From the NCBI GenBank assembly GCA_031835245.1, contig JAVKOQ010000029.1:1-64000 (forward strand): DNA of 64,000 nt, read 5' to 3'. Every line of letters starts with the position of its first letter. The first letter of the stretch is position 1. The stretch is from Balamuthia mandrillaris. Its lineage: Eukaryota; Discosea; Longamoebia; Balamuthiidae. The notes under the pieces were generated by a model. The model saw only the letters and a program-made list of their open reading frames with translations, did not search any database and was not told the DNA's origin. This document shows, in pieces, positions 1-25,548 of the stretch. Made by a program: the position numbers and the translations under genes.

Positions 1-153
1 AACCCTACTCAATATCATAACTATAGTTGAAAGTTACCAAAATGCCACCCAAAACTAACCAACATCTTACCCAGTCCAAGTCATAAACATCACAAATATC
101 CCTCCCATCAAAAATGCTTCTATTTACTAACCTTAAGCAAAGGTGTAGGAAAA

Positions 154-1509
154 ATGCGGAAAAATAGGACTCTGCCACGCAAGAGCACTGAATTGATTGA
201 CAGTCAGGAGAGGGAACAGGTCCTACGTCGATGGGTGGATCTGGCCATGAAGGAACGTCTTAGACTGGGGACCCTAAACGGTAATCGTTCGTGGAAGCCC
301 GCTTTGCAAGCTGTGCAATAAGAGGCAAAGATCCCCGAGTGTTTTGTCAAAGGGGACAAGCTAAATCAGTTTCTGGAGGAAGCGTTCAAGTTGGCGGTGG
401 AAAAGTATGGGCACCTGAACACTACCACAGTCAAGATTCCTTCTCCCAGGGTGAACCAAAAGGAGGAGGACGACAGAGGGGCAGAGGATCAGTGTAACTC
501 GGTAGCGGATTCGCCCCGCCGAGAGGAAGGGACAAGTGTTGTGCCCAAGGGGAAGATTGATTCGGACTCAGTCAGTGCAGCCGGCGTTAAGGAGCGAACC
601 AATAGTCAAGTGGCGCTGCTGTTTGATTGTATTAGCCGTGTTTCTCACGAGTGTGGTAAGCTCTCCGAGGCAGGCGTACTCTCACTCGCAGTGATTGTAC
701 GATTCAGGGACCTGATTGAATCCCTCGACAAGGAGATCAATAATCTTATGGTGGAAAAAGGAAGTGCAAATAGTACCAAAGGCGGCCTTACTCTGGGTTC
801 CCAACGGTCTTACGCGGAGGTGGTCGGATCCGCTCCGCGGTGTGATATGATTACTGCGGAAAGGAATTTCCCTCCAACGGCAACTACGGTCAGCGCGCCA
901 AGCTTGGAATACTGGAAGGAAGAAATGGCAAAGGAACAAGGGATATGTTGGCAGGATAACTCCAACATATACAGGAGGACGTGGACCAAAGATACAGTAA
1001 CCGACCCGAACTATTGGTCTACAGTAAAACCAAAGTATGGCTTTGCCAGTCCCTACTCCAAGGTAGGGGCGGTGGAGGGCAGATCGATTGTGGTGAGCGG
1101 TAAGGACCTTAAGAAGGAAAAGGTAAGTGAGAGGATCTTCGAGCTGGGGCTCAAGCACGTCGGAGTGTGGAAAGTAGGAGAGAAGAATGGCACGCAGCAT
1201 TGGGGAGTTACTTTGGAGCCGGCCCAGGCTGCCGAAGACATTATTGCGGAAAGAGCCAGGCTGTATGCTTTTACCCGCTGGTGGGTGGGCAAAGCCCGAA
1301 TTGAAGAAGCCAAGAATGAAGGTAAACCGCTGTGGAAGCCTAAAGAGCAAAGAAAGATGGAGAAGAAGAAGGAAAAGGAGGAGAATGTTGGAACAGTGGC
1401 CTTGGACAGCTCTTTGGAACTCTCAAGCATCGCGCTGGCTGAGGAGGTGTATCATGGTGCTGCCAACTGGTCTGACATTGTGGAGGAGGAAGGAGAGGAG
1501 ACCCAATGA
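154..1509 (+). pseudogene. LINE copy 1 ORF1, broken near the N-terminus
   Basis: The ATG at 154 opens the frame, which reaches a TAA at 319-321. The same frame continues from an ATG at 391 to the TGA at 1507-1509 (372 codons). Copy 3 reads through this place and encodes a Cys-x2-Cys motif (PACKLCKRGKDP). Copy 1 has small insertions there, net +6 nt, that create the stop and remove the motif. The rest is charged, with a Lys/Glu-rich C-terminus. By analogy with other LINEs this would be an RNA-binding protein, but I recognise no standard RRM or esterase domain. Either translation starts at 391 or this copy depends on ORF1 supplied by another. Confidence 0.7.
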
Positions 1510-4500
1510 CTTCAGTAGCGTTTGTCAACTCTAGGGGCTGGGGACAAGAGGAATTGGTCAGCTGTTGGGCTGACAGTAAGCAATTTGACATTATTGGAGT
1601 GTGCGAACATAGGAGGATGGTTGCCCCTCGATTGGAGGGGTATCGGTGGATGGGTGGAGGGGCTGCTCCAGGGAGGAGTGGCTATGGAAGGGGTGGCGCA
1701 GGTTTCTTTGTTCGAGAGGGCTTCAAGGGGAACATCAGAGAAAGGAAAGAGTGGCGAACACCCAACTCCACTTGGGTGGAACTGGCGGGACAGGGTTGCA
1801 TCTTTATAATCGGTATAGTGTATCTCCCTCCAGGAGGTACCGTGGACAACTTTAAGGTCACCTTGGCTGCGATTGAGAAAAGAATCCTGGACGTGGTCAA
1901 GGAAGGAAGACCCCTGATTATTGGAGGTGATTGGACCGCCAGGGTTGGAAAGGGATGGAATGGTAGAGGTGAATCTACTTACAACACGAGAGGAAAGGTG
2001 TTGGTGGAGGCTTTCAAAAGGCTGGCCCTCTCGTTGCCTCAGCTCGAAGAGGAAGCGCCAGTATTTACATGGAGAGCTGGAAAACGAAAGAGCATTGTGG
2101 ACTATGTGGTAGCATGGAGATGGACGGGCAAGGTAGTTGGTGACAGATGGCAAGCTTGGACCGATCATCGACCACTGGTAGTCGAGTTGAAGGCCCCAGC
2201 AGATAATTGTGGCGGGGTTTGGATGGAACGATGGAAGTGGAAGTCCTACTCGGAGGAAGATCGCAAGAGGAGGTGGAGGGAGTACAAACGCGGGTGCAAG
2301 CGTTTCTTCAAAGGAGAGGAATGGAAGGCCATGGTCAAGAAAACCCGGGAGGGAACAGCTACTGTTGAAGATCTTTGGAGCAAGTGGAAAAAAGGATTGT
2401 GGGATTGTGCAATGAGATGGTTTGGTAGAGAAAGGAGACTGATAGGAGCAACAACGAGCAGGGCAAGGAAGCCATGGTGGACAGCAGAGTTAACATCCTT
2501 GAACAAGCAGGTAGCGATAGCCCATGCTCAGTGGCTAAGAGAAGGAAAGAATGATGGAAAGGCCAGAGAGGAATTTGTGGAACTCAGGAAAAGGTTTGTG
2601 AAGTTGTGGAGAGCCAACAAATGGGACTGGATGAAGTGGAAAAGACAAGAGAACATCAAGGAAATGCAGAAATGGATCGGCAACATGTGGAGGATAGTGG
2701 CAAAGCGTAGAGCAGAGCCCAAAGCAGTTAGGGCGCACCACGGTAGCACGGCAGCCTTCAAGGAACATTGGGCAAAGCTGGGAAGGAAGGATTCTTCCAT
2801 TGGGAGCTTGCATCGAGAGGAAGCAGGTCCAGAAGGACTGCCTTGGTCTGGTAGTAACTGGCTTAAGAAGGAGAGTTTTAATCTTGCATGGAGGAAAAGA
2901 TTGAGGGTGGGCAAAGCAGCTGGGGTGGACAATATTGATGGGGAAATGATGAAGTATGGAGGCAAACATGTGCAAGATGCAACTTGGCCGCTGATCAAGG
3001 TCATTGAGAACCAAGGCATATTCCCCAAGGAGTGGAAACAGGGGGTGGTTATTCCCTTGCATAAGGCAGGAGATCCCCAGAATCCAGCAAACTATAGAGG
3101 TATTACTCTCCTATGCAATGCAGCCAAGGTGTTTGAAGGAGCTATCTTGGTACATTTGAACATACAAGCAAGAGAGCAAGGGTGGATAAGTAATTGCCAG
3201 GGTGGATTTAGAAAAGGAAGGGGAGTCATGGATCAGGTGTGGCGGTTGAAGAAATGCCTGATGAAGAGAAGCAAAGAACGTACCTATATTGCTCTGATGG
3301 ATATCAGCAAGGCATATGACATGCTTGACCATGACATACTGGCAAGGACATTACGCAAAAGAGGAGCAGAAGAGGCAGCAGTGGGTATCATTACAGAGTG
3401 GTACCATGGTATGACGAGTGTTATTCGCATGAATGGGCAGCTTTCAGAGGAATTTCTGGTGGAAAGAGGAGTTAAGCAAGGAGGAGTTTTGTCTCCATTC
3501 TTGTTCAATGTATACATTGATGTGGTGGCAAGAAAGCTACAAGCTGCAGAGGAGAAGGAAAGAGGAGATAAAGCAAGGAATGTTTGCTTGTTGTTTGCAG
3601 ATGACTTGGCAGTGGTGGCCAGCGACCCATTTGAGCTTCAGAGAAGATTGAATGTAGCAGTGGAGGCAGTGAATGCTCTGGGACTTCAGTTCAATGCAAA
3701 GAAATCAGTGGTGCTAGTACAAGGAAAGAAGGCTCATTTTCAAGAGTGGAGACTGAAGGGGGAGGCTGGGAAACGGGTGAAGGAGGCCAAGTACCTGGGA
3801 CTGTGGTTTGAAGAAAGTGGGGAATGGACAACTCATGCCAAGGAGAGGATCACCAAGGCCAAGCAAGCCCTCTACAGCCTTAGGCAGCGGGGAGCCAATG
3901 CCCAAGGCCTTGGTACACGCACTGCCCAGATTGCTGCAGAGGCTATTGTCAAGTCTACCTTGTCATATGGATTATGTATGACAGAGCTTTCCAAATCATG
4001 GTGGAAGAAGATCGAAGCAGTGTGGAATGAGACAGCAAGAAGTGTATTGCAAGTTCATCGAAGGACTGTGGCGGGGGTTTGTAGAGCAGAATTGGGCTGG
4101 TTGACCATCAAGGCCTGCTGTGAGTTGGAAAGACAAGCAGTAATTCATCATGCTGAGAGGCAAGATGGCCACTTTGAGCTACTTGAAGAGGTAAGCCAAG
4201 CAAGTGAAGAGGAAGGGGAGAAGAATGAAGGTGAGGGAGGTGACGGAACGACAGTTGTTGAAAAGAAAGCCATGAGGATGAGGGCCTTAACTCGAGTAGC
4301 CAAGATGGAGTATGCAGCTGAAGGAGAAAGAGGAACAAGAGCATGGCTATGGCATAACTTCTTGACAAATGGAAGATGTTTGGTTGGACAACAACGGAGC
4401 TTAGTGATTACCAACCCAAGGAAAGAACGTTTGATGAATGCTATTCGCTGTGGTGGCCTGCCTATTGGAAAAAAGTGGGGATCCATTCAGCAGTCTGAGG

Positions 4501-4811
4501 TGGATAGCAAGTGCCCTGCATGTGATGCTGAGGAAGAAACAGCAGAACACTTCCTGTTAAGGTGTCCTAACCTTTGGGAAGATCGCTTTAGAATCTGGAG
4601 TGTGGACAATGGAAGTGAAGAACAAGTCAGAAAGCTGATTATTGAAGACTGTACAACAAAGCTCATGTCAAGTGGAAAGAAATGTAACAGAGCTCAAGAG
4701 ATGGAACAATGTAAGCAAAGTTGTAAACGAGTCTGGAGATTATGGGCAGCAAGAGCAAGTTGGAAGCATGGAAGTTCTTCTGCATTTTATCAGTCTTTGG
4801 AAGTAATGTAA
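1506..4811 (+). CDS. LINE copy 1 ORF2: endonuclease-reverse transcriptase
   Basis: This 1101-residue protein has the usual LINE order. An APE-like endonuclease occupies about residues 1-240, with motifs VNSRGWG, GVCEHRR, YLPPGG, GGDW, SIVDYV and TDHRPL. The reverse transcriptase covers about 480-830, with [15 protein letters not shown], the motif-A aspartate in [19 protein letters not shown] and the catalytic FADD. A CX2CX8HX4C zinc motif ([18 protein letters not shown]) lies near residue 1000. The ATG overlaps the ORF1 stop as ATGA, so translation is probably coupled by termination and reinitiation. The conserved Asn of the endonuclease GDxN motif is Thr here (GGDWTAR), whereas copies 2 and 3 keep Asn. 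This copy is probably endonuclease-defective although its frame is open. Confidence 0.93.
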   Translation: MTSVAFVNSRGWGQEELVSCWADSKQFDIIGVCEHRRMVAPRLEGYRWMGGGAAPGRSGYGRGGAGFFVREGFKGNIRERKEWRTPNSTWVELAGQGCIFIIGIVYLPPGGTVDNFKVTLAAIEKRILDVVKEGRPLIIGGDWTARVGKGWNGRGESTYNTRGKVLVEAFKRLALSLPQLEEEAPVFTWRAGKRKSIVDYVVAWRWTGKVVGDRWQAWTDHRPLVVELKAPADNCGGVWMERWKWKSYSEEDRKRRWREYKRGCKRFFKGEEWKAMVKKTREGTATVEDLWSKWKKGLWDCAMRWFGRERRLIGATTSRARKPWWTAELTSLNKQVAIAHAQWLREGKNDGKAREEFVELRKRFVKLWRANKWDWMKWKRQENIKEMQKWIGNMWRIVAKRRAEPKAVRAHHGSTAAFKEHWAKLGRKDSSIGSLHREEAGPEGLPWSGSNWLKKESFNLAWRKRLRVGKAAGVDNIDGEMMKYGGKHVQDATWPLIKVIENQGIFPKEWKQGVVIPLHKAGDPQNPANYRGITLLCNAAKVFEGAILVHLNIQAREQGWISNCQGGFRKGRGVMDQVWRLKKCLMKRSKERTYIALMDISKAYDMLDHDILARTLRKRGAEEAAVGIITEWYHGMTSVIRMNGQLSEEFLVERGVKQGGVLSPFLFNVYIDVVARKLQAAEEKERGDKARNVCLLFADDLAVVASDPFELQRRLNVAVEAVNALGLQFNAKKSVVLVQGKKAHFQEWRLKGEAGKRVKEAKYLGLWFEESGEWTTHAKERITKAKQALYSLRQRGANAQGLGTRTAQIAAEAIVKSTLSYGLCMTELSKSWWKKIEAVWNETARSVLQVHRRTVAGVCRAELGWLTIKACCELERQAVIHHAERQDGHFELLEEVSQASEEEGEKNEGEGGDGTTVVEKKAMRMRALTRVAKMEYAAEGERGTRAWLWHNFLTNGRCLVGQQRSLVITNPRKERLMNAIRCGGLPIGKKWGSIQQSEVDSKCPACDAEEETAEHFLLRCPNLWEDRFRIWSVDNGSEEQVRKLIIEDCTTKLMSSGKKCNRAQEMEQCKQSCKRVWRLWAARASWKHGSSSAFYQSLEVM

Positions 4812-5042
4812 GCAAGGAAAAGAGGAAAAAGGAAAGGGAAAGAAAAGGATAGCTAGATGATACAAAGTTGGTCTGAAATCTCATTAAACACCTTTCACTT
4901 GTGAATTGAGTAACAATTGGGAAGGCATTGAGGATGAGGGAGTAAGAAAAGTAAGAGTACACTATGTATGTACAAGGCTTACTTTTTATGTATAGATTGG
5001 TGTTGCTCTCAGAGCAAATAAACTTTTTATTACTACTACTAC

Positions 5043-5858
5043 CTACCCAGCACTTTCAAGTTTTCCACTTGTTTGATGTGAGAAAATACTGATAAACTCA
5101 GAATTTTGGAAAAACTTGATTATGCACAGTAATATCTATAATGCAAATAATTATTTTTATTTTTTTTCTAGTTGTGTAGGAAAAGTTCTTCTTGAGTTTT
5201 ACCTTTTTGACACTGGGCTCAAACTACTTGATAGTCCCTTGAAGAATGACTTAAGTAGGCAGACAGTCCCTTTTCTCTCCCTCTCTCTTTTTCTCTCTCT
5301 TATTCTTTCTTCTCCCTTGTCTTCCAGTCTTGAACATGGGTTCTGAGCCGGTTCTGTTTTTGGGTGGTAAGTTGAGAAAGAGGAAGAAAGAAGTGAAAAG
5401 AGCTGTGGGTGAAGGGAGAGAGGGAGGAGAGGAAGAAAGTGAGGGAGAGGAAAAGAGAAAGGAGAGAGGGAGAGAAATGAGACCTTCTTTCTTTCATTCT
5501 ATTAAAGGTCTTCTCCACACCCATCCCTGGGAGTCACTCTTTGGTTGACTGTCAGGCCAATAATCATGATACTACTCTCCAAAATGCCTGGACCACAAGG
5601 AAACAAAGGTGACAAGAAGGAAGAATATGTGTGTAATGCTAACTAAAAGAAGAAAGGAGATAACGGAATAAAAGGAGGAAGGCTGGTGATATGACAGCAG
5701 CAATTAATGCACATCATGGATGTCAATAGGAAGAAAGGAAGTACTCAACACTTTGTTTAGAGCAAATTGTTCCAGGGCTCTCTGGCAAGGGAGTGTTTGT
5801 GATGAAAGCAATGTTGAGTTTTAACCCATTTTCATTCAGAAATTGAACAAGCAAAAAA
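5043..5858. other. Intergenic spacer with CT- and GA-rich stretches
   Basis: This spacer separates LINE copy 1 from the 3' end of the CLC gene. It holds a CT-rich run at about 5271-5325 and a purine-rich run at about 5376-5480. ORFs across these runs have repetitive composition and no recognisable domain. I see no RNA gene here. Confidence 0.5.
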
Positions 5859-10735
<4,877 letters not shown>

Positions 10736-10982
10736 TAGCTTGCTCGTTTTGGTCTTTCTTTTTCTGGTTTTTTTTAAAAGAAAAAAAAAACAACAGAGGA
10801 AAAACAACAAAAAAAACAGACAAAAAACAAAACTGAGCAGTGCGACTTGCAAAACGCAGAAAAACAGGTTGGTGGTTTCGTTTTTTTTTTTTTTTTCATT
10901 CTTGTAAACAAACAATGCAGCAAAAGAAAGATAGTGTGGAGCCCAACCATCAAGGCAAAAGGGAAAAAGAGTGTAAATGTAA

Positions 10983-13900
10983 CTACTTGCCCCTGCCTCT
11001 TTTTCGTTGCGCAATCCTTCGTGTTTTGCTTGTGTGGGTGGGCTCAGGAGAGCTCTCTGATTCATGAGCTTCTTGTTCATATTTGTGTTCTTGCTCTTCA
11101 CTGCTGAGTTGTTGCTGCATCGTGCCCTTCTTCTGAGCGCAGTAAAAGTCAGGAAAAAGTAAAGCAGAATGGTCCGAGTGCAATACATTCAAGTACCTTT
11201 GTATTCTTGCTTTTAACTGTTTTTTTGGGCTTTTTGGGATGGGAACCTTCAATGTGAGCAATTGTAGTGGTAGAGGGAGTCACCTTTCGTTTCCTGTCAG
11301 AGGGTTAGCCAAGCTACTTCTGATGAGGCGAAGGGAAACCTACCGCTTGGCTACACGTCGACTGGCAGCTATTTTTCCCGTTTCCATTTCTTCCTTTGCT
11401 TCTTTCTCTTTTACGCCTTCCTCCTCCTTCTCTTTCTCGCTCTCCTCCTCTTCCTCTTCCTCCTCTTCCTCTTCCTCCTCTTCCTCCTCTTCCTCACTAC
11501 TGGAATGTTCTTTAAGTGATAGCCCACGTTTAGCCTTTCTGTCAACAGATGTTCGGCGCTGTGTAGGCTTATTTTTAGAAGGATCCAAATAGGTATCTTC
11601 CTCCATTTTGTTCTATTGTGGTTTGTTAAACACTTGTTTGCCCATGGTGTATGCGGAAGCCAGCTTTCTTACCTTTTTGGCCCTTTTGGTGCTAGCGATC
11701 TGTTTGGCAGCAGCTACCTAGATGTTTCCATTCTAAGGTAAAGAAATTTTGTAGGTGCAAGGAAGGGAAAGGGTTTAAGTACCGGTGGTGTCTTTCTCTT
11801 GGGATTTTCAGCTAAGGAAGTATCAGTGCTCTGAGATATGTATGAGGAGCAAAGACAAGAACGTTGTTGATCGTAACACAAAGAGCAACAAAATGGAGAG
11901 AGAGAGAGAGAGAGGGTTTTTCACCTTCGCAGGCGCACTTTCGTAAATAAGTCTGTGTCTAGCACCAGTTGGCAAGGAAAAGTCCGCAGGTAGATACTTC
12001 CGATTTTGGTAGGAAAAATGCGGAAAAATAGGACTCTGCCACGCAAGAGCACTGAATTGATTGACAGTCAGGAGAGGGAACAGGTCCTACGTCGATGGGT
12101 GGATCTGGCCATGAAGGAACGTCTTAGACTGGGGACCCTAAACGGTAATCGTTCGTGGAAGCCCGCTTTGCAAGCTGTGCAATAAGAGGCAAAGATCCCC
12201 GAGTGTTTTGTCAAAGGGGACAAGCTAAATCAGTTTCTGGAGGAAGCGTTCAAGTTGGCGGTGGAAAAGTATGGGCACCTGAACACTACCACAGTCAAGA
12301 TTCCTTCTCCCAGGGTGCACCAAAAGGAGGAGGACGACAGAGGGGCAGAGGATCAGTGTAACTCGGTAGCGGATTCGCCCCGCCGAGAGGAAGGGACAAG
12401 TGTTGTGCCCAAGGGGAAGATTGATTCGGACTCAGGCAGTGCAGACGGCGTTAAGGAGCGAACCAATAGTCAAGTGGCGCTGCTGTTTGATTGTATTAGC
12501 CGTGTTTCTCACGAGTGTGGTAAGCTCTCCGAGGCAGGCGTACTCTCACTCGCAGTGATTGTACGATTCAGGGACCTGATTGAATCCCTCGACAAGGAGA
12601 TCAATAATCTTATGGTGGAAAAGGAAGTGCAAATAGTACCAAAGGCGGCCTTACTCTGGGTTCCCAACGGTCTTACGCGGAGGTGGTCGGATCAGCTCCG
12701 CGGTGTGATATGATTACTGCGGAAAGGAATTTCCCTCCAACGGCAACTACGGTCAGCGCGCCAAGCTTGGAATACTGGAAGGAAGAAATGGCAAAGGAAC
12801 AAGGGATATGTTGGCAGGATAACTCCAACATATACAGGAGGACGTGGACCAAAGATACAGTAACCGACCCGAACTATTGGTCTACAGTAAAACCAAAGTA
12901 TGGCTTTGCCAGTCCCTACTCCAAGGTAGGGGCGGTGGAGGGCAGATCGATTGGGGTGAGCGGTAAGGACCTTAAGAAGGAAAAGGTAAGTGAGAGGATC
13001 TTCGAGCTGGGGCTCAAGCACGTCGGAGTGTGGAAAGTAGGAGAGAAGAATGGCACGCAGCATTGGGGAGTTACTTTGGAGACGGCCCAGGCTGCCGAAG
13101 ACATTATTGCGGAAAGAGCCAGGCTGTATGGTTTTACCCGCTGGTGGGTGGGCAAAGCCCGAATTGAAGAAGCCAAGAATGAAGGTAAACCGCTGTGGAA
13201 GCCTAAAGAGCAAAGAAAGATGGAGAAGAAGAAGGAAAAGGAGGAGAATGTTGGAACAGTGGCCTTGGACAGCTCTTTGGAACTCTCAAGCATCGCGCTG
13301 GCGGAGGAGGAGTATCATGGTGCTGCCAACTGGTCTGACATTGTGGAGGAGGAAGGAGAGGAGACCCAATGACTTCAGTAGCGTTTGTCAACTCTAGGGG
13401 CTGGGGACAAGAGGAATTGGTCAGCTGTTGGGCTGACAGTAAGCAATTTGACATTATTGGAGTGTGCGAACATAGGAGGATGGTTGCCCCTCGATTGGTG
13501 GGGTATCGGTGGATGGGTGGAGGGGCTGCTCCAGGGAGGAGTGGCTATGGAAGGGGTGGCGCAGGTTTCTTTGTTCGAGAGGGCTTCAAGGGGAACATCG
13601 GAGAAAGGAAAGAGTGGCGAACACCCAACTCCACTTGGGTGGAACTGGCGGGACAGGGTTGCATCTTTATAATCGGTATAGTGTATCTCCCTCCAGGAGG
13701 TACCGTGGACAACTTTAAGGTCACCTTGGCTGCGATTGAGAAAAGAATCCTGGACGTGGTCAAGGAAGGAAGACCCCTGATTATTGGAGGGGATTGGAAC
13801 GCCAGGGTTGGAAAGGGATGGAATGGTAGAGGTGAATCTACTTACAACACGAGAGGAAAGGTGTTGGTGGAGGCTTTCAAAAGGCTGGCCCTCTCGTTGC

Positions 13901-16900
13901 CTCAGCTCGAAGAGGAAGCGCCAGTATTTACATGGAGAGCTGGAAAACGAAAGAGCATTGTGGACTATGTGGTAGCATGGAGATGGACGGGCAAGGTAGT
14001 TGGGGACAGATGGCAAGCTTGGACCGATCATCGACCACTGGTAGTCGAGTTGAAGGACCCAGCAGATAATTGTGGCGGGGTTTGGATGGAACGATGGAAG
14101 TGGAAGTCCTACTCGGAGGAAGATCGCAAGAGGAGGTGGAGGGAGTACAAACGCGGGTGCAAGCGTTTCTTCAAAGGAGAGGAATGGAAGGCCATGGTCA
14201 AGAAAACACGGGAGGGAACAGCTACTGTTGAAGATCTTTGGAGCAAGTGGAAAAAAGGATGGTGGGATTGTGCAATGAGATGGTTTGGTAGAGAAAGGAG
14301 ACTGATAGGAGCAACAACGAGCAGGGCAAGGAAGCCATGGTGGACAGCAGAGTTAACATCCTTGAACAAGCAGGTAGTGATAGCCCATGCTCAGTGGCTA
14401 AGAGAAGGAAAGAATGATGGAAAGGCCAGAGAGGAATTTGTGGAACTCAGGAAAAGGTTTGTGAAGTTGTGGAGCGCCAACAAATGGGACTGGATGAAGT
14501 GGAAAAGACAAGAGAACATCAAGGAAATGCAGAAATGGATCGGCAACATGTGGAGGATAGTGGCAAAGCGTAGAGCAGAGCCCAAAGCAGTTAGGGAGCA
14601 CCACGGTAGCACGGCAGCCTTCAAGGAACATTGGGCAAAGCTGGGAAGGAAGGATTCTTCCATTGGGAGCTTGCATCGAGAGGAAGCAGGTCCAGAAGGA
14701 CTGCCGTGGTCTGGTAGTAACTGGCTTAAGAAGGAGAGTTTTAATCTTGCATGGAGGAAAAGATTGAGGGTGGGCAAAGCAGCTGGGGTGGACAATATTG
14801 ATGGGGAAATGATGAAGTATGGAGGCAAACATGTGCAAGATGCAACTTGGCCGCTGATCAAGGTCATTGAGAACCAAGGCATATTCCCCAAGGAGTGGAA
14901 ACAGGGGGTGGTTATTCCCTTGCATAAGGCAGGAGATCCCCAGAATCCAGCAAACTATAGAGGTATTACTCTCCTATGCAATGCAGCCAAGGTGTTTGAA
15001 GGAGCTATCTTGGTACAATTTAACATACAAGCAAGAGAGCAAGGGTGGATAAGTAATTGCCAGGGTGGATTTAGAAAAGGAAGGGGAGTCATGGATCAGG
15101 TGTGGCGGTTGAAGAAATGCCTGATGAAGAGAAGCAAAGAACGTACCTATATTGCTCTGATGGATATCAGCAAGGCATATGACATGCTTGACCATGACAT
15201 ACTGGCAAGGACATTACGCAAAAGAGGAGCAGAAGAGGCAGCAGTGGGTATCATTACAGAGTGGTACCATGGTATGACGAGTGTTATTCGCATGAATGGG
15301 CAGCTTTCAGAGGAATTTCTGGGGGAAAGAGGAGTTAAGCAAGGAGGAGTTTTGTCTCCATTCTTGTTCAATGTATACATTGATGTGGTGGCAAGAAAGC
15401 TACAAGCTGCAGAGGAGAAGGAAAGAGGAGATAAAGCAAGGAATGTTTGCTTGTTGTTTGCAGATGACTTGGCAGTGGTGGCCAGCGACCCATTTGAGCT
15501 TCAGAGAAGATTGAATGTAGCAGTGGAGGCAGTGAATGCTCTGGGACTTCAGTTCAATGCAAAGAAATCAGTGGTGCTAGTACAAGGAAAGAAGGCTCAT
15601 TTTCAAGAGTGGAGACTGAAGGGGGAGGCTGTGAAACGGGTGAAGGAGGCCAAGTACCTGGGACTGTGGTTTGAAGAAAGTGGGGAATGGACAACTCATG
15701 CCAAGGAGAGGATCACCAAGGCCAAGCAAGCCCTCTACAGCCTTAGGCAGCGGGGAGCCATTGCCCAAGGCCTTGGTACACGCACTGCCCAGATTGCTGC
15801 AGAGGCTATTGTCAAGTCTACCTTGTCATATGGATTATGTATGACAGAGCTTTCCAAATCATGGTGGAAGAAGATCGAAGCAGTGTGGAATGAGACAGCA
15901 AGAAGTGTATTGCAAGTTCATCGAAGGCCTGTGGCGGGGGTTTGTAGAGCAGAATTGGGCTGGTTGACCATCAAGGCCTACTGTGAGTTGGAAAGACAAG
16001 CAGTAATTCATCATGCTGAGAGGCAAGATGGCCACTTTGAGCTACTTGAAGAGGTAAGCCAAGCAAGTGAAGAGGAAGGGGAGAAGAATGAAGGTGAGGG
16101 AGGTGCCGGAACGACAGTTGTTGAAAAGAAAGCCAAGAGGATGAGGGCCTTAACTCGAGTAGCCAAGATGGAGTATGCAGCTGAAGGAGAAAGAGGAACA
16201 AGAGCATGGCTATGGCATAACTTCTTGACAAATGGAAGATGTTTGGTTGGACAACAACGGTGCTTAGTGATTACCAACCCAAGGAAAGAACGTTTGATGA
16301 ATGCTATTCGCTGTGGTGGACTGCCTATTGGAAAAAAGTGGGGATCCATTCAGCAGTCTGAGGTGGATAGCAAGTGCCCTGCATGTGATGCTGAGGAAGA
16401 AACAGCAGAACACTTCCTGTTAAGGTGTCCTACCCTTTGGGAAGATCGCTTTAGAATCTGGAGTGTGGACAATGGAAGTGAAGAACAAGTCAGAAAGCTG
16501 ATTATTGAAGACTGTACAACAAAGCTCCTGTCAAGTGGAAAGAAATGTAACAGAGCTCAAGAGATGGAACAATGTAAGCAAAGTTGTAAACGAGTGTGGA
16601 GATTATGGGCAGCAAGAGCAAGTTGGAAGCATGGAAGTTCTTCTGCATTTTATCAGTCTTTGGAAGTAATGTAAGCAAGGAAAAGAGGAAAAAGGAAAGG
16701 GAAAGAAAAGGATAGCTAGATGATACAAAGTTGGTCTGAAATCTCATTCAACACCTTTCACTTGTGAATTGAGTAACAATTGGGAAGGCATTGAGGATGA
16801 GGGAGTAAGAAAAGTAAGAGTACACTATGTATGTACAAGGCTTACTTTTTATGTATAGATTGGTGTTGCTCTCAGAGCAAATAAACTTTTTATTACTACT

Positions 16901-19900
16901 ACTACTACTTCCGATTTTGTTGTGCTGCAATCTCTTGGTCGCCTTCAGGCAAAATAAACAAGTCTCGTGGCAGATAAACGCTAGCACTAGGGGTGTGGTC
17001 CGACCACGCTTTCTTATTTGATTTTTCTTCAACGAACCGTAAAGCTATTTCGCACAGAATCCTAATATGCTAGTTTGAAAAAGTCAAGGACTGACCTTGT
17101 GATATCTTAACAAGGAGAGGCTACGAACCTCATCACAAGCTGGTTTTTGGGCATCTTCCGTTTGCATCATGAAGCCAAGCAACTGTCGCAAGAAAGTGAA
17201 ATTATCCCCATGGCTGAGCACTGGCTCCAGAAAGTAAATCAGATACCTGGATGATGTGAGAAGAAGTCAACAACTCATTAATCGACAAATAGCACACACA
17301 AGAAACAAGGTTGGAACATTACTTAGCGGAGTTCGTATAGTGAGGGGTGTCCTCCTTCCAATCTTTTCGATGGGCCAATAGGTGAATCAAGTAAGGCAAC
17401 GCATATTCCGGTAACAATGCAGGCAAGATACTAGCTGACGATTTATTACTGCTTGATAATGCCTTGAGCTTCTCTCTTCGCACTCTAATACAAGCGGTCA
17501 AATAGCTCTTGGCCTGGACAAATATAGAGGTCAGAAGGAAGCAAACGCGAGAGCAACAAAGCCATGTATCCTACCTTGTGTGCCAGCTTACGTTGCGGAT
17601 CTAATGCAGCCAAAGCAAAAAAGCTTAAGTACTTCAGCGGCAGTTTCAAATCCTTCAAACCCTTCCACAACTCATCCAACATGGCGTCACGCACTTCAAA
17701 TGAAGGGTGCTGTTGATTGCTTGGTTAAAAAACGAAGAAGGCAAAGATAGCAAAGAGAACAAACAAGGACAATATGTGCTTCACCTTGAGTACCATCGCA
17801 ATAGCTTGGATTTGTTCCGGTGACATTAAGCGGTCGTAATATTTGTAACGTGCCAACTTTAGAATAGAGGAGCTGGCACATTGCACCAACTTCTCAGCGT
17901 CTGCAGTGCTTGTGTTCGCTACAATCTCTCCATTCTTTTCAATTATATCATAGGCCAATTCTAGTGCTTGTTTTGGAACGTTAAGGTCCACGTCCTCTCC
18001 TTCTGCGTCATGGCAAGCTCTTAGATAGTTCACCAGTAATTTCATACCAAGCACCTTCGTCACAAAAAACGGGTCAACAAGTGTAAGACTTCGGGAAAAA
18101 AAAAATAATGTTGAACAAGAAAAATTAAGAAGAGTGCTTTTAAATTTATCCCACCTTTTTTATGCATAGTTTCGAAGGTTTATCCCTGCTATTTTTAGTC
18201 CTGGGAAATGCCTCCACGATTAACTCTTCCATTACAAATGAGACAACCCGGTCTTGCGAAGGGGAGGATAGGAATGTATCTGCATCCATTTTCGCCAATT
18301 GAGCTAACGACTGCAATGCAGAGGGAGCAACCTTGCTAGGGTCCGTAATCAATGAAAACAAGTTCTGTAAACAAAATGGTAAGTGGCAGTGAATACAAGG
18401 TATTGAAGCATGAAGTTATTCATAAGAATGCAAAGAAAAAAAGCACCCTCATCAATTTGGCAAGCATTCCTTTATCTTCTCTGCAGACCGAGTGGATTGC
18501 CTTCACAGCACACTTGGCCTGCGACACGGAGCCTTCCATTGCAAACTGACACAAACGCTTTTCAAGGGTCCTGCGGGCAATGAAATAGAAAATGAGAAGG
18601 CAGTATGAGGAAGGAAGAGATATGCGGATACTTTTTCAGCCTCGAGGTTCGTTTGAGCTGGCCGCCAACGCTAGCAAAGATTTCCAAAACAGTATCCACC
18701 AACAAAGGATCCTCGTCTTCAAGGAGTGTTGAGAGATCAGAGAGAGATCCCTTAAACAGCGACGGGAAAGTAGATGACAGTTCCTAATGCAATATCTTGA
18801 TAAATAGCAAAAAAAAAAACTAACAAACCCACAAGAGACATGATGGCAATTACCTTCAAGAATTTCAAGGCTGCTTGAGCACTTTTTTCTTGGTCGGATT
18901 GTTTCCCTAAACTCTTCAATTCGGCAAAAAGGAAGGGTAGGCAATCCTGGCTCACGATATTCATTGAAAGTTTTTGCACCACCAACTTTAAGTACTCCAT
19001 TCCTGCACTTGATTTAGATCGATAACCCTTGAAGATATCTTCCTATTGTATTACAGTAAAGTTATGGGCCAATAAATATAACAATAATTGCAGCACAGGT
19101 CAGTGAAGAAAGTGAAAATACCTCTGCTGTAACCACTTGTTGGTACTCTACGTCAGTGTCGGCCAAAAGAGCAAGACCTTTCCAAATTTGGCTGACTTTC
19201 AAATTATGTAAGGCTTGGAATCTTGCAGTACTCCCAGGCAGCTTGTTTGCCAGAGAAGTAATCCTGTTTGTTATCTGTTCGTCTATTTGACGGTCATCCC
19301 CATCACTCTGTGTGAATACAGGTGAGAGACAATTCAATGCCAAGTCCCAAAACTATATATAGAAATAATATCACCTTTGTGAGGCGGCTTCGCGCTTTTA
19401 GATAAGCTTGAAACTCGGTTTGGAATCTGAGGGGAAGAATAGGGATTGGTTATCCCGTACTTTATCTATATTTATAAATATTGTACGTACGTTTTCTTGT
19501 CTTTTAGGATCCTTGATAATGCAATAACTGCATGCTCGTCTAGACTAGGAAGCAGGTTAACTAGAATTCTAGTGCGTTCCTCCACTTCAGCACCCTTGGG
19601 TAACAACTCTTCAGCTAAAATTTGTTCCACCAGTAGCCTATAGAGCACATGAGCGGGAATATTTCAGAGGTGAGTGAGAGGGGAGGGGGAGGGAAGAGAC
19701 TACCGTATAGCCATATCCGTCTGGTAACAGCAATGCAAAATGCTGTTTGGAATCCAGCCAAACTTGTTCTGGTGAGAAGGTTTCCAAGAAATCTGAGGAC
19801 CCCATTTTTCCACAAGCTCTCTATAAAGAACAGCAAGCTTGGTAATTGCTGCTGTGCGAATGGATAGCTGAAAGATCCCAACATTTTAGATACACGCCTG

Positions 19901-20375
19901 GTCCTCAAAAATCGGAGGAACTTACTTTCTTGTCTCGCATGCGCAAGCCTATTTCCTGCAATATTTGATTCGTGAGGGCTTGGGGGTCGAAGATAGCAGA
20001 CTCACAAACAGCCACTACAGCGGCTTCCCTAACTTTTTCGTCCAAATCCCGCAGGCGTTTTTGTAGGGCCTCTGCAGAGACATATGTGTTAATTAACACG
20101 GCTGGGAAGAACCAAAATAAACATAGAGAGCAGTTCTACCATTGATTGATTTGTGGGAGGCGGGGTGGTTCTTGATGAACTGAGGGACGTACTGGATCAT
20201 CAGCAAGCGTATATCTGGTTCAATATCATTAAATCTGCTGATGAAGGTATTGAAGAGTTGGGGATAGCTTGTTGGCAACAAAGAACCCTCTGCCGAAAAC
20301 ATTTCTCCAAGCAGTTTAACAACACTTTTTCTTTTGCTTAAATCCTCTACCTGTTATCAACAAATTTATTTGCTG

Positions 20376-20424
<49 letters not shown>

Positions 20425-21537
20425 AGGAAGAGCTATAGGGAAGGACCTTAAGTTCTCGCTCCAACTCGGGAAGAACATAAAGCAAAATGGTAGGGGATAT
20501 TTTGTTGAGCTCCCAAATGAGTTCATGGGCGTAGTCTTTGAGCTCGCTTTCGGAGGTATTGGCGTCAACCAAGGCGCTCTGCAGGAACTGGGTAATGGCA
20601 GCCTGTAGGAGTTCAGCACATCCTTGGACCAGCTGTCTGGCGAGCAAATACGATGGAGGATGTTCTTGCTGCGCACCAAATAAGTAAGTGAGCGAAACTA
20701 CATGACGGTGGAGTTGAGAAGAAGAGAATTACCTTATTTTTTGCCAAAAGGTTCACAAGTATTGCATCCAGTAGCTCTAAAGGTATCTCTTCGCATTCTT
20801 CTAAGCAGCTAGTCATGATATCCAACATATGAGTAACCACAAGTACAGAGTGTTCTGGCCTAGAAAAAACAGACACGCAAAAATGGTTATCCTACCATCC
20901 AACAACAGAGAGAAAGGAAAGGCATGGGAACAAACGTTATTGCGTCAAAAAACGTCTTAAAAACTTGGACCAAAAGTTCGTCTTCTTTGTCCACGAGGAT
21001 GATAAAAGCCTTGACCACAGCCAACTTTTCTAAAAGGGCAAAGCGTAGGTGAAAGGACTCGTCCTCCACCTCCCCAATCCTTTGCAGTTGTTGAATAAAA
21101 AGTTGGAATACTTGCTAACCATATTTTAAATTACAGGCAAGTCAGTTAAACGCGAGGTTCCAACGAGAGGTCGCAAGTACCGATATCATGGAATGATCAT
21201 ACGGCGCGTCTGGGGCATAGATACGGATTATGTCAGCAAGACAACACGCGGTCAACAGTCGCACTTCCGAATTCTTGTGAGTAAGCAGCTCTTTTTGAAC
21301 AAGCGTTGCAGCGGTGGAATCGAGCATAGATTTTGATCTGTTATCTTGTTTCATGCTTTTCAAAAACTTATAGAGTTTCTATTTGAAGCAGCGAAAAGAA
21401 GATGATGAGCGAGAGTGCTAGTACACAATAAATAGTGCGCATGAACGTACCCCAAGGCGACGAAGCAACTCTGCCTTGGACAGAGAGGCAGAGACAAACT
21501 CTGCCGTCAACAACTTGCTCTCCTGTTGCTGACTCAT
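10983..21537 (-). CDS. PDS5: PDS5 sister-chromatid cohesion regulator, split by LINE copy 2
   Basis: PDS5 is a HEAT-repeat protein that binds the cohesin ring and controls its loading and release. The ATG at 21537 starts [10 protein letters not shown]. The PDS5 signature [20 protein letters not shown] lies near 21220. HEAT repeats follow across 21120-17100, including [18 protein letters not shown] near 20230 and [17 protein letters not shown] near 20050. The C-terminus is a charged nuclear-type tail: an acidic Glu run at 11430-11500, then basic ...[12 protein letters not shown] and a stop at 10983. One exon reads [15 protein letters not shown] (16940-16985) and [20 protein letters not shown] (11942-12000); LINE copy 2 lies between these pieces in antisense. 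All tail introns are in phase. Without the LINE the exon would be about 177 nt, from 17012 to 11925. Confidence 0.85.
11995..12008. repeat. Target-site duplication, 5' side of LINE copy 2
   Basis: tacttccgattttg is repeated exactly at 16906-16919, on the other side of the element. The first t is ambiguous with the TAC tail. Confidence 0.93.
12018..13372 (+). pseudogene. LINE copy 2 ORF1, stop plus frameshift
   Basis: The ATG at 12018 meets the same early TAA as copy 1, then the frame is open from 12255. A one-base loss in an A run near 12622 (four A instead of five) shifts the frame. The original frame resumes and ends in TGA at 13370-13372, overlapping the ORF2 start. The copy therefore shares one lesion with copy 1 and has one of its own. 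Confidence 0.85.
13369..16674 (+). CDS. LINE copy 2 ORF2: intact endonuclease-reverse transcriptase
   Basis: This open 1101-codon frame has the same layout as copy 1. The endonuclease keeps GGDWNAR with the catalytic Asn, plus SIVDYV and TDHRPL. The reverse transcriptase has [16 protein letters not shown] and FADD, and the C-terminal CCHC is present. The start overlaps the ORF1 stop as ATGA. It is the best candidate in this window for an active ORF2, although ORF1 of the same copy is broken. Confidence 0.95.
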   Translation: MTSVAFVNSRGWGQEELVSCWADSKQFDIIGVCEHRRMVAPRLVGYRWMGGGAAPGRSGYGRGGAGFFVREGFKGNIGERKEWRTPNSTWVELAGQGCIFIIGIVYLPPGGTVDNFKVTLAAIEKRILDVVKEGRPLIIGGDWNARVGKGWNGRGESTYNTRGKVLVEAFKRLALSLPQLEEEAPVFTWRAGKRKSIVDYVVAWRWTGKVVGDRWQAWTDHRPLVVELKDPADNCGGVWMERWKWKSYSEEDRKRRWREYKRGCKRFFKGEEWKAMVKKTREGTATVEDLWSKWKKGWWDCAMRWFGRERRLIGATTSRARKPWWTAELTSLNKQVVIAHAQWLREGKNDGKAREEFVELRKRFVKLWSANKWDWMKWKRQENIKEMQKWIGNMWRIVAKRRAEPKAVREHHGSTAAFKEHWAKLGRKDSSIGSLHREEAGPEGLPWSGSNWLKKESFNLAWRKRLRVGKAAGVDNIDGEMMKYGGKHVQDATWPLIKVIENQGIFPKEWKQGVVIPLHKAGDPQNPANYRGITLLCNAAKVFEGAILVQFNIQAREQGWISNCQGGFRKGRGVMDQVWRLKKCLMKRSKERTYIALMDISKAYDMLDHDILARTLRKRGAEEAAVGIITEWYHGMTSVIRMNGQLSEEFLGERGVKQGGVLSPFLFNVYIDVVARKLQAAEEKERGDKARNVCLLFADDLAVVASDPFELQRRLNVAVEAVNALGLQFNAKKSVVLVQGKKAHFQEWRLKGEAVKRVKEAKYLGLWFEESGEWTTHAKERITKAKQALYSLRQRGAIAQGLGTRTAQIAAEAIVKSTLSYGLCMTELSKSWWKKIEAVWNETARSVLQVHRRPVAGVCRAELGWLTIKAYCELERQAVIHHAERQDGHFELLEEVSQASEEEGEKNEGEGGAGTTVVEKKAKRMRALTRVAKMEYAAEGERGTRAWLWHNFLTNGRCLVGQQRCLVITNPRKERLMNAIRCGGLPIGKKWGSIQQSEVDSKCPACDAEEETAEHFLLRCPTLWEDRFRIWSVDNGSEEQVRKLIIEDCTTKLLSSGKKCNRAQEMEQCKQSCKRVWRLWAARASWKHGSSSAFYQSLEVM
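16906..16919. repeat. Target-site duplication, 3' side of LINE copy 2
   Basis: Exact repeat of 11995-12008. On the minus strand it encodes part of the interrupted PDS5 exon (...QNRKY...). Confidence 0.93.
20380..20424. repeat. (GA)n/(CT)n microsatellite in a PDS5 intron
   Basis: A short GA run, CT in the PDS5 transcript, lies in the intron between the exon ending ELERELKV and the next. Confidence 0.9.
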
Positions 21538-22034
21538 CTGTGCAAGAGATACACTCCTCTCAATCAATTGACAGCAATCCAAAGAGAAGCCCAAAAAAAA
21601 AACCAGTCGGCCCGTTGGGAGGTGTACGTACGTTGGCAGCCGCTACTACCTTTTTTTTTTAACGTTTGGTTCAAAAAAGAAACCAAGCCAGCAGCAGGTT
21701 TGGCGCCAAATTTTGTTCCCCCCAGTCCCGCAGTTTTTTTTTTTTTGCCGCTCTAATTCTTTCCAAGAATGTTTTCCTTTGCCCAGAAGCATTTATTTAT
21801 TTCTTGTGTTGCCTCAGCGCGAGGCGCTCAACTGCCTTCTTCTGAAACGAAAAAAATGATGAGCTGAGATGAGGTGAAGAAGCCCACCCAAAGTATGAAG
21901 CTGGAGGTATGTTGTGTTTTGTGCGTTTTTTTTTTCTGCCTTTTTCCCGTACTAATTTTGCTCCGTTGTCCCATTGATCTGACTGATCCTGGCGCCGCTT
22001 TAGTGTGCAGTTTTACCCTTGTGGTTTTTTTTCA
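21538..22034. other. Spacer between PDS5 and the PDCD2-like gene
   Basis: This 0.5-kb spacer separates the PDS5 start from the stop of the PDCD2-like gene, both on the minus strand. It contains homopolymer T runs (21650-21660, 21726-21746, 21929-21936) and should hold the PDS5 promoter. No gene is visible. Confidence 0.5.
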
Positions 22035-23030
22035 TCACAGACTTGCCTCTTGGAAGGCAAACTCCTGCACAAACCCTGCTGTTGATGCGGATGGTTGGCA
22101 ACTTGCGCTGCACGAGAAGGCCGCGACGGTGGAAAAATCTAGCGTGCAGGGCATGACGTGTGCATGCTGATGAATGAGGTAGATGAAAGTTGGCAGAAGT
22201 TGGAACTCAAATATCCTAGGAAAACCACAGTGCCAACAGGGAGGAACCTGGTCTGGCTCTATGCCTTTGTTGGCAACCCACATGCATTCCCCATTTAAAA
22301 TATACCTGGAGAGAAAGCAGCATCGGTAAGGCAATGAAGTAGTCTGCAAATTGCAAATTAGGTTCAATGGATGGAGGTTAGTTACCGCAGACACTGTTCT
22401 GGGTTCTCCTCCATGTATCGCTGGAATCTCAAAAAGGCCTTGTCGGATGCCTCTGTGGCTTCGTATTCTTCATCTCCTCCTGTTCCATCCATCTCCTCTA
22501 TAGCGCTAAGTGCTTCTGAATATTTGGCAAGCAATTGCTTGTCTTGCTGATTCTTTTTCTGCGTATTACGCTTGCATACGGGCCGTATTTCCTCCTCCAT
22601 GTAGTATGCTGTGAAGTGGTCGTTGCTCGTCCTCCCAATACCTCTTTCACCACCATTGCCGCCTGTTGTTTTACCTGGTGTGGCAAAATCTGACGAATCA
22701 TGCCGCGCCTTTGTCTTTGCGTCTTTGGGACTTTCGTTAAGGTTGAGCAACGCCTCAAACCCTTTTTCTAGTTCTTCGTCATCCAGTTGACTTTCCCAAG
22801 AGGAACCACCCCAATCCTCGTTCCCGCCACCCGAAGCCCAATCGCCTATCTTAAATTCGGTGCATTGTGCCTCATCCTCGTCCACCTCTTGCTGTTTTAA
22901 TTGTTCACGGTTTTCCATCGTCGTACGCTGCCACCGTAGTAGTCGCCAGCTAACAACAACAACGAGAATAGCTTTAGCGAGAGAGTAAGAGCGAAAAGAG
23001 AGTATGAGCGAGGAGATAGGGAGGGGGAGA

Positions 23031-23069
<39 letters not shown>

Positions 23070-23496
23070 TGGAGAAAAAATTGAGCGAGAGGGCGAGGGA
23101 GGGAAGAACGGATACCTCAGTGTTGGATCCTCAACTGATGAGCATCCCTCTTTTGGGCATACAAACAGAAAGAGAATACGCTCCTTTTCAGGTGCGTGGG
23201 GTAAAGGGGCGTACAACTGAGTTACAAGGACCATTTCTGAGCCGCAGCACTCACAACATAAAAGAGAAAGCGGTGGAGAGACATCCTCCACCCAACACTG
23301 TCGGAAAGCAAAGAGGTCAGATCAAAAAAGGCTGGTTTGGGTGGGTGTGAATGAGCCAAACGGAAAGTACCGGAAGACCACCGAATTTAGAACAATAAGC
23401 GTCCAGCTGATCGACAACTTCCTCACCAAGAAAGCCAAGTACCTCCTCCGTAGGCACTTCCGCTGGCGGCGGTGCAAACCCCTCTGGTGCGTTCAT
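22035..23496 (-). CDS. PDCD2/PDCD2L family protein
   Basis: PDCD2 relatives chaperone ribosomal protein uS5 during 40S assembly. Exon 1 (23496-23371) encodes GFLGEEVVDQLDAYCSKFGGLP, matching the PDCD2 N-terminal 'GG.P' region. Exon 2 carries CCECCGSEMVLVTQLYAPLP and FLFVCPKEGC, the zinc-binding part. Exon 3 holds a long acidic linker with DWGGSSWES and the start of the C-terminal domain (DKAFLRFQRYMEENPEQCLR). Exon 4 (22310-22035) gives GECMWV, CWHCGFPRIFEFQLLPTF and FSCSASC, typical of PDCD2_C. The start was chosen at the ATG at 23496; a frame seen further upstream opens on TTG. The gene is divergent from the P-loop gene at 23670, with 173 bp between the starts. Confidence 0.88.
23029..23064. 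repeat. (GA)n/(CT)n microsatellite in a PDCD2-like intron
   Basis: GA on the plus strand, CT in the sense of the gene, inside intron 2. Confidence 0.9.
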
Positions 23497-23669
23497 GGCA
23501 GTCTCGAATCCTTTCAATCTCTCGTAATTATTGCCTATGAATAAGACTATCGATAATTATCGCGAAATAGTTATTCATGGGCGATAAAAAAAAGAGTCTC
23601 TAACTCCCCCCCCAAAAAAAAGCAGCAACAGAACAACCACCAAGCCTACCAAACAACAAAAGAACAAAA
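23497..23669. promoter_or_regulatory. Probable bidirectional promoter
   Basis: Only 173 bp separate the starts of two divergent genes (PDCD2-like on minus, P-loop ATPase-like on plus). The spacer includes a palindrome-rich stretch around 23535-23575 and a C/A-rich run at 23607-23625. The promoter role is inferred from the layout. Confidence 0.45.
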
Positions 23670-25031
23670 ATGTGGAGGAGGAGCGTTGTTGGGGCGAAGG
23701 TGGCACCGCTGGCCTGCGGCTTTGTTGCCCACTCTGGGCGCTCACTGCCGCAGGTTGTATCGTTGCGCGGGCCTGCCTTGCGAGCAGTAAACCTGGGCAT
23801 GAGTGGTGCCGGTTGGAGAACTGTTACCTCTCGGCGTTGCTTTGCCGCCACTCCCGGCGGCCCACCTGGAGGAAGAGTTCTTGGGACGGGTCCGAGCCTC
23901 GATCAGTTGGCCAAGAAGGGAATGACTGAGGAAGAAATACTAAAGATGGTGGCTCAGAAGACCAAACCGACGAGGTTTTCCTTCATGTCAACCCATCGCG
24001 CTGTTCTGGAATACGTTGTTGGCGTGGCTTGTGGCCTGTGTACGTTGCAGCCTCACTTTGCGTTGGCAGTCTCACTTTCGTCTTACCCCATATCCAACGC
24101 CAATTCACAATGAAGGTGTGGGTTATGGACTCTTCGCCGAGAATGGGTTCTTAAACCCAAAGGCCCAAGAAAAGCAGAAGGACCTGTTGGCCCAGTTAAT
24201 GCTTGAAAGAAGCCGAAATGTGTACACAGTGGTGCTCACGGGTGGCCCCTGTGGTGGCAAGTCCTCTGCCATGGAGCACTTTATCAAACACTTTGAGCAA
24301 CAAGGCTTTGTTGTGCTAACCCTCCCAGAAGTACCGACCTTGCTTTTCCAATGTACTCTTCTTTCCTATTGCATGCTCGTCTCTGGTGTGAGTGGGGGGG
24401 GGGCTTTTGTTTCTTCTTTTATTATTATTCGTTCCTTCTTCTTACTTCTGTGTACACACAACAAAATTCAAATGTAGCTGGTGTACCAAGAGATTTATCT
24501 AAGTACACCCCAGAGCAGCTGTTTACTTTTGAGCAAGAGGTGTTAAATACCCAGATAAGGCTTGAGGATGCTGCTGTTGGTGTAGCCAATAGTCTTGGCA
24601 GGAAGTGCTTGATATTGTTGGATCGAGGAGTACTTGACATTTCCGCCTACTTGCCTCCGTCTCTTTGGCATCAGCTGCTTGACAAGTCAGGTCTGACTGA
24701 GCATGCTCTGAGACAACGCTATGATGCTGTGGTCCACCTTATAACAGCAGCCCAGGGCGCAGCAGCGTTTTACACCACTGCCAATAATGCTGCTCGCACT
24801 GAAACTGTTGAAGAGGCCATTGCACTTGACAAGAAAGTGCAACAAGCATGGTTGGCGCATCCTCGCCATTGTATTGTTGACAACTCCACTTCCTTCAAGG
24901 AAAAACTTCAGAGAAGTTCAGCCCTTCTTGAAGATGCTTTGCAAAGAACAGACAAAAGACCTGTGGGCGCGGAGCAGGCTCAAGGGTCTAATACAAGAGA
25001 TACACTGACTGCAAACAACACTACCAAGTAA
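23670..25031 (+). CDS. P-loop protein, AAA_28/TTD14-like, with mitochondrial-type leader
   Basis: Exons 23670-24039, 24116-24352 and 24478-25031 join in phase to 386 codons. The first 60 residues (MWRRSVVGAKVAPLACGFVA...) are Arg/Ala/Ser-rich without acidic residues, as in a mitochondrial presequence. A Walker A motif, TGGPCGGKSS, sits near residue 165. It is followed by LPEVPTLLF, LILLDRGVLDISAYLP (Walker-B-like Asp) and YDAVVHLITAAQGAAAFYT, with NNAARTE and a HCIVDNSTSF block. This order matches the AAA_28 group that includes insect TTD14. Those proteins bind GTP and phosphoinositide in the studied case; the substrate here is unknown. Confidence 0.85.
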
Positions 25032-25548
25032 AAATCATTCTTTTTTTGTTTGGGAGAGCGTGCGTGCGAGGTTTACCAGTTCAGTTCAGTTCAAAATAGT
25101 TTTATTGCTTTTCCGTTGGACTGATTTGGTCAGCAAATTTAGATACAACCAGTGAGGTTGACCTTTAACGGTGTGTGCAATGGGGAAATACAAGTGGGTA
25201 TTGGCCTCTAAGGAGGAATCACGATGTAAACGCTATCCTGGTAGGCTCTTGGGAGGGGTCGTTGAAAGCATCCCCTTTGGCTTGGTTTGTGTGGGTGGGA
25301 TGCGGGTGCGAGGTTTACCTATTCTCTTGTCGACAGCGCCACTGTTCAATAAAGAGTCAATGAAACGTCGTTGAAAACCGCTGGAAAAAAGCTCTAAGCC
25401 ACCAATGGGGTTTGCCGGCAATATACCCCCCCTTGCAGGGGCAAATATTAAAGGCAGCACCGGGCCTGCCCTCCGTTTTGTTTATTTTTACCGCTCAACC
25501 CCACCACACTTCTACTACCTCTCAACAGCTCCCTTCAAACATCACAAC
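25032..25548. other. Spacer upstream of the CBS-domain gene
   Basis: Half a kilobase with no recognisable gene. An ATG at 25405 is in frame with the CBS protein and would add 48 residues. Those residues are low in conservation signs, so 25549 is preferred. Confidence 0.45.

Follow-up and report, generated by a model that had tools for sequence, protein, structure and literature searches.

An antisense LINE was identified inside a coding exon of the PDS5 gene of Balamuthia mandrillaris, and the same exon was found without it on a second contig of the same assembly. Very probably, a recently active APE-type LINE was inserted by target-primed reverse transcription, in antisense, into PDS5 exon 20; the genome would be heterozygous and may be polyploid, and one of its haplotypes (or homeologues) would carry the insertion. 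Directly observed were the element with its 14-bp duplication, the exact empty counterpart on contig C494, and predicted frames that are open in both alleles once the insertion is disregarded. The window analysed here is a stretch of 64,000 nucleotides at the start of the 328-kb contig C28, and the assembly searched comprised 64.8 Mb in 775 contigs. The GC content of the window was 45.9%, and 46.4% is given for the ITSON01 genome in an excerpt of PMC10471605.

The LINE, a non-LTR retrotransposon of 4,897 bp, occupied positions 12009-16905 on the plus strand, antisense to PDS5, and its 5' end was the same as in other long copies. It was bordered by two exact copies of the 14-bp target-site duplication TACTTCCGATTTTG, recognised as a 14-mer match at 11995-12008 (left) and 16906-16919 (right). 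The initial annotation had described a LINE lying in antisense between these 14-mers within a PDS5 coding exon, and both the duplication and the intervening LINE were confirmed; its claim that the two exon halves share one frame also held when the minus strand was read. The initial bases TA (or TAC) of the duplication were indistinguishable from the end of the (TAC)n tail of the element. The 12-bp core of the duplication occurred twice in the window and in 0 of 100 shuffles.

Two coding regions were recognised in the element. The ORF1 region (12019-13374, plus strand) was interrupted in this copy by a stop after 55 codons, its span being taken from copies open for 451 codons. In 31 loci, a set which includes L028, L029 and L050 with only 493-778 nt of the element each, ORF1 was open for 451 codons in 15 and interrupted after 55 codons in six, the PDS5 copy included. 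ORF2 (13369-16674, plus strand; open frame 13339-16674, first ATG at 13369) would encode an endonuclease and a reverse transcriptase. The reverse transcriptase matched PF00078 (RVT_1) with an E value of 2.3e-31, and the endonuclease, upstream of it at residues 114-233 of the ORF2 frame, matched PF14529 (Exo_endo_phos_2) with 29.9 bits against a cut-off of 27.4, while PF03372 stayed below threshold (19.7 against 24.5). No long terminal repeats were found when the element was compared with the window, its own ends not matching each other at E 1e-5. From these sequence features, namely endonuclease, reverse transcriptase, no LTRs, target-site duplication and a 3' simple-repeat tail, the element is classed as an APE-type LINE. 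It resembles such LINEs in having both enzymes, variable duplications, a short tandem-repeat tail and many young copies, whereas its tail was (TAC)n and not poly(A). The best 120 of 730 protein relatives were just 27-37% identical to it in the reverse transcriptase. By the sequence of that domain, the nearest solved relatives scored about equally, with 78.2 bits for PDB 8gh6, which we take to be an R2-type protein, and 76.3 bits for human LINE-1 ORF2p (PDB 8sxt).

The family to which the element belongs is young, as judged by the identity among its copies. At least 40 LINE 5' ends in the assembly, the PDS5 copy included, were 99-100% identical, a lower bound since 40 were scored among 109 candidates. 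Over its longest aligned stretch (493-1992 nt), each of the 35 other loci examined was 98.8-99.6% identical to the PDS5 copy; this comparison counts both ends of some copies and includes L028, L029 and L050. Two further near-full copies were matched within the window, one at 145-5042 (plus strand, 99.2% identical to the PDS5 copy) and the other at 58835-53971 (minus strand, 97.7% identical, with a 13-bp duplication). Clear target-site duplications of 12-16 bp were present in nine of 17 copies examined. Of the remaining eight, C96 (8 bp) and C344 (match inside the tail repeat) were counted as unclear, and no duplication was found in the other six (C764, C176, C254, C7, C159 and window 145). The copy at 145-5042, with no recognisable target-site duplication and with C494 beginning at its 3' edge (window 5045), may have recombined or may be the product of a chimeric join. 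At the 5' junctions of C26, C105, C124, C203, C448, C242, C8 and window 58835, 1-20 extra bases, often G runs, were observed between the duplication and the element match, and none at the PDS5 insertion. Some LINE matches begin at element nt 3-6, and the extra bases may partly be altered element ends.

The coding part of the interrupted gene (10983-21537, minus strand) contained 25 predicted exons, with the insertion in exon 20; the exon model was built only from splice signals, frame and homology. The uninterrupted allele (C494:5564-11139, minus strand) likewise had 25 exons, separated by 24 introns of 50-97 nt, all GT-AG, and its predicted protein was 1304 aa long. This protein matched Pfam PF20168 (PDS5) over residues 23-1077 (E 1.4e-257), the family profile covering the whole folded part, and human PDS5B (PDB 5hdt) matched its HEAT-repeat region at residues 15-1096 (E 2.4e-121). 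By these matches the gene is PDS5, and its role in cohesion is predicted from family membership; it differs from other PDS5 cohesin regulators in having its window allele broken after residue 1093.

Exon 20 was delimited by splice signals, frame and conservation. Its 5' part, upstream of the insertion, lies at 16906-17061 (minus strand), and its 3' part at 11925-12008 (minus strand), which includes the second duplication copy (11995-12008) and runs to a phase-0 donor. When the duplication is counted a single time, 17061-16906 plus 12008-11925 make an exon of 226 nt that starts in phase 2 and ends in phase 0. The preceding intron was 50 nt long and in phase 2, with its acceptor at 17061. An exon of 177 nt with phase-0 splice sites on both sides had been proposed before; the phase-0 donor at its 3' end stood, while the 5' side proved to be phase 2. 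The 177-nt exon was rejected because its 5' boundary would discard conserved sequence upstream of 17012, where a 16-residue stretch aligned with human PDS5B and most of 28 homologues; the outer ends of the exon are thus 11925 and 17061.

Several other candidates were rejected during modelling of the gene. A start of exon 16 at C494:7713 gave a stop and a seeming frameshift (a 5-T run on C494 against a 6-T run in the window); the acceptor 33 nt further on, at C494:7680, restored the frame, so the difference in the T run would be intronic. An NCBI protein of 997 aa, named 'Sister chromatid cohesion protein pds5, variant 3 [Balamuthia mandrillaris]', matched the PDS5 encoded by the window allele. 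Its end coincided with the border of exon 18, as though intron 18 had been read, upstream of the insertion, and it is therefore uninformative on the exon 20 part of the model. Used as query for a second PDS5 gene that could serve as backup, it matched only C28 and C494, besides two exon-4-like pieces. These pieces (C36:49609-49728 and C174:108872-108991) were exon-sized duplicates, 93% identical to PDS5 residues 154-193 (exon 4), and neither contig had any PDS5 match beyond them. The idea that the downstream half has an annotated protein of its own was also discarded, as the last 307 residues of PDS5, used as sole query in a length-limited search, gave no match at E <= 1e-3. The transcriptome paper of the species (PMC8569187) does not mention cohesin, Pds5, ploidy or allele.

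The site without the element was located by searching the assembly with window 16800-17300, which gave a match on C494 starting at position 16906 with 99% identity. C494 (32,718 bp) followed window 5045-41263 collinearly, with a blastn identity of about 94-97%, except opposite window 25035-25308, where it has about 2 kb of different sequence. Around the insertion it was collinear with window 5045-12008 and 16906-25035, with the element absent, and C494:6536-6549 was a single copy of the 14-mer between the same flanks, an exact empty site. The two contigs were identical there for 113 bases leftwards (14-mer included) and 178 bases rightwards. For window 11000-11994, the 3' part of PDS5, long matches in the assembly were restricted to C28 and C494. 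Because the exact empty site lies in a collinear contig, the LINE is placed on just one of the two haplotypes or homeologues that were assembled. Its presence in the same assembly supports one of the options raised in the initial annotation, that the interrupted exon is one allele in a genome that is polymorphic or polyploid.

The same contig bears on whether the LINE was misplaced into PDS5 by the assembler. Such a chimera would be in keeping with the several contigs that terminate at LINE ends, and with the copy at 145-5042, which lacks a duplication and at whose edge C494 begins. It is nevertheless hardly credible, as both flanks of the PDS5 LINE were contiguous in C494 and an exact 14-bp duplication was present, which a chimeric join is not expected to make.

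After removal of the element and one duplication, both PDS5 alleles had 25 exons, with all introns GT-AG and no stops. Between C28 and C494, 29 substitutions were counted in 3,915 aligned exon bases (0.74%) and 26 in 1,648 intron bases (1.58%), and by manual reading the proteins differed at nine amino acids outside exon 23. Exon 23 (11344-11612) contains a glutamate-rich repeat whose length differs between the alleles; in the window allele this exon exceeds its C494 counterpart by 45 nt, and it shows other differences too. The pair C28/C494 may, judging from the sequences, represent two alleles, two homeologues or a mixed culture. That the genome is polyploid and the two contigs carry homeologous or duplicated loci, and not alleles, is possible though doubtful, and overlaps with one branch of the preferred explanation. 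It agrees with the 'indication of hyperploidy' reported in an excerpt of the V039 genome paper (PMC4582570), and with the second loci of two other insertion sites, which were less alike (83-86% on at least one side). The divergence of PDS5 in exons and introns, however, fits alleles, and C494 is a short contig with its start at the margin of a different LINE copy, as expected of an unpurged haplotig. If the loci were homeologous, the cell would never be without an intact PDS5 gene, and fixation of the insertion would be possible.

Second loci in the assembly were looked for at eight insertion sites (PDS5, C203, C26, C8, C242, C124, window 58835 and window 145). The C203 insertion had a close empty counterpart on C21, with 92-98% identity, and the C26 and C8 insertions had more distant ones (83-85% and 86-96%), with the element absent at the junction. 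No close second locus was found in the assembly for C242, C124, window 58835 (5' flank) or the left flank of window 145; the flank of C124 is a repeat in its own right, and C494 starts at the right flank of window 145. With four of the eight sites lacking a close second locus, haplotypes were therefore not separated throughout the assembly. In addition, the contig pairs C39/C43 and C424/C549 showed matches at identical coordinates within each pair, which suggests duplicated haplotype contigs.

On the preferred reading, an insertion on one haplotype or homeologue, target-primed reverse transcription would have put the LINE into exon 20, and the consequence for the interrupted allele can be predicted. 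On the gene strand, codon 1093 was followed directly by six TAG codons at the junction, therefore the interrupted allele can encode at most residues 1-1093 of 1304. Its predicted product is a protein of 1093 aa without the last 211 aa, the charged tail included. Behind the in-frame TAG stops, 12 nt into the element on the gene strand, lies an AATAAA (16889-16894, minus strand), a possible signal for premature polyadenylation, so the transcript might also end there. Full-length PDS5 would be supplied by the other allele.

The lost 211 aa open with a conserved YL just past the insertion point. YL was present in 20 of 28 homologues (another residue before L in six, YV in one and a gap in one), and the fuller motif YLP in nine of 28. 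The solved human PDS5B chain aligned to just beyond the insertion point, so that the loss starts at the margin of the solved region. According to an excerpt of PMC4996973, the charged C-terminal tail of human PDS5B is predicted to be unstructured and is dispensable for cohesin binding, and it lies near SA1 and Scc1. By analogy, it is possible that the lost tail is dispensable, as the initial annotation had offered in its third option, though the conserved YL goes too. For the interrupted allele, a truncated and partly working PDS5 and a loss of function appear equally possible from the sequence.

Removal of the element from the transcript, by splicing or by exon skipping, which was the second option of the initial annotation, would leave a working PDS5 from the interrupted allele, and the name 'variant 3' does suggest that several transcripts are annotated. 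This is very unlikely. All 24 predicted introns were 50-97 nt long against 4.9 kb for the element, so splicing it out would take an intron about fifty times the longest in the gene. Since exon 20 (226 nt) starts in phase 2 and ends in phase 0, skipping it would shift the frame and end the protein after 1047 aa. More speculative than the insertion itself, and rather improbable, is a further idea about its outcome: the 3' end of the LINE in antisense could act as a ready-made gene trap, with stops of the repeat tail in one frame and the host-strand AATAAA 12 nt in, and a stable tail-less PDS5 from one haplotype would be made beside the full-length form. If this were true, insertions of the same LINE family would cut host messages short cleanly.

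In kind, the PDS5 event is ordinary: a young LINE has disrupted a conserved gene in one of its copies. It is a new instance, and an unusually well documented one. Disease-causing human L1 insertions are comparable, being heterozygous and exonic, with a recent insertion and its target-site duplication breaking one allele while the other stays intact. The present case differs from them in that a full-length antisense element is involved, in a free-living amoeba with a suspected polyploid genome. Among the papers searched on transposable elements of Balamuthia, judged from titles and opening abstract lines, none was about a LINE of the species; a Ty3/Gypsy-like element is described in an excerpt of PMC4665321. 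The polymorphism of a LINE insertion in Balamuthia mandrillaris points to recent activity of the element. Moreover, the occupied and empty PDS5 sites would give a simple marker to distinguish haplotypes and strains in a species whose ploidy is unsettled.
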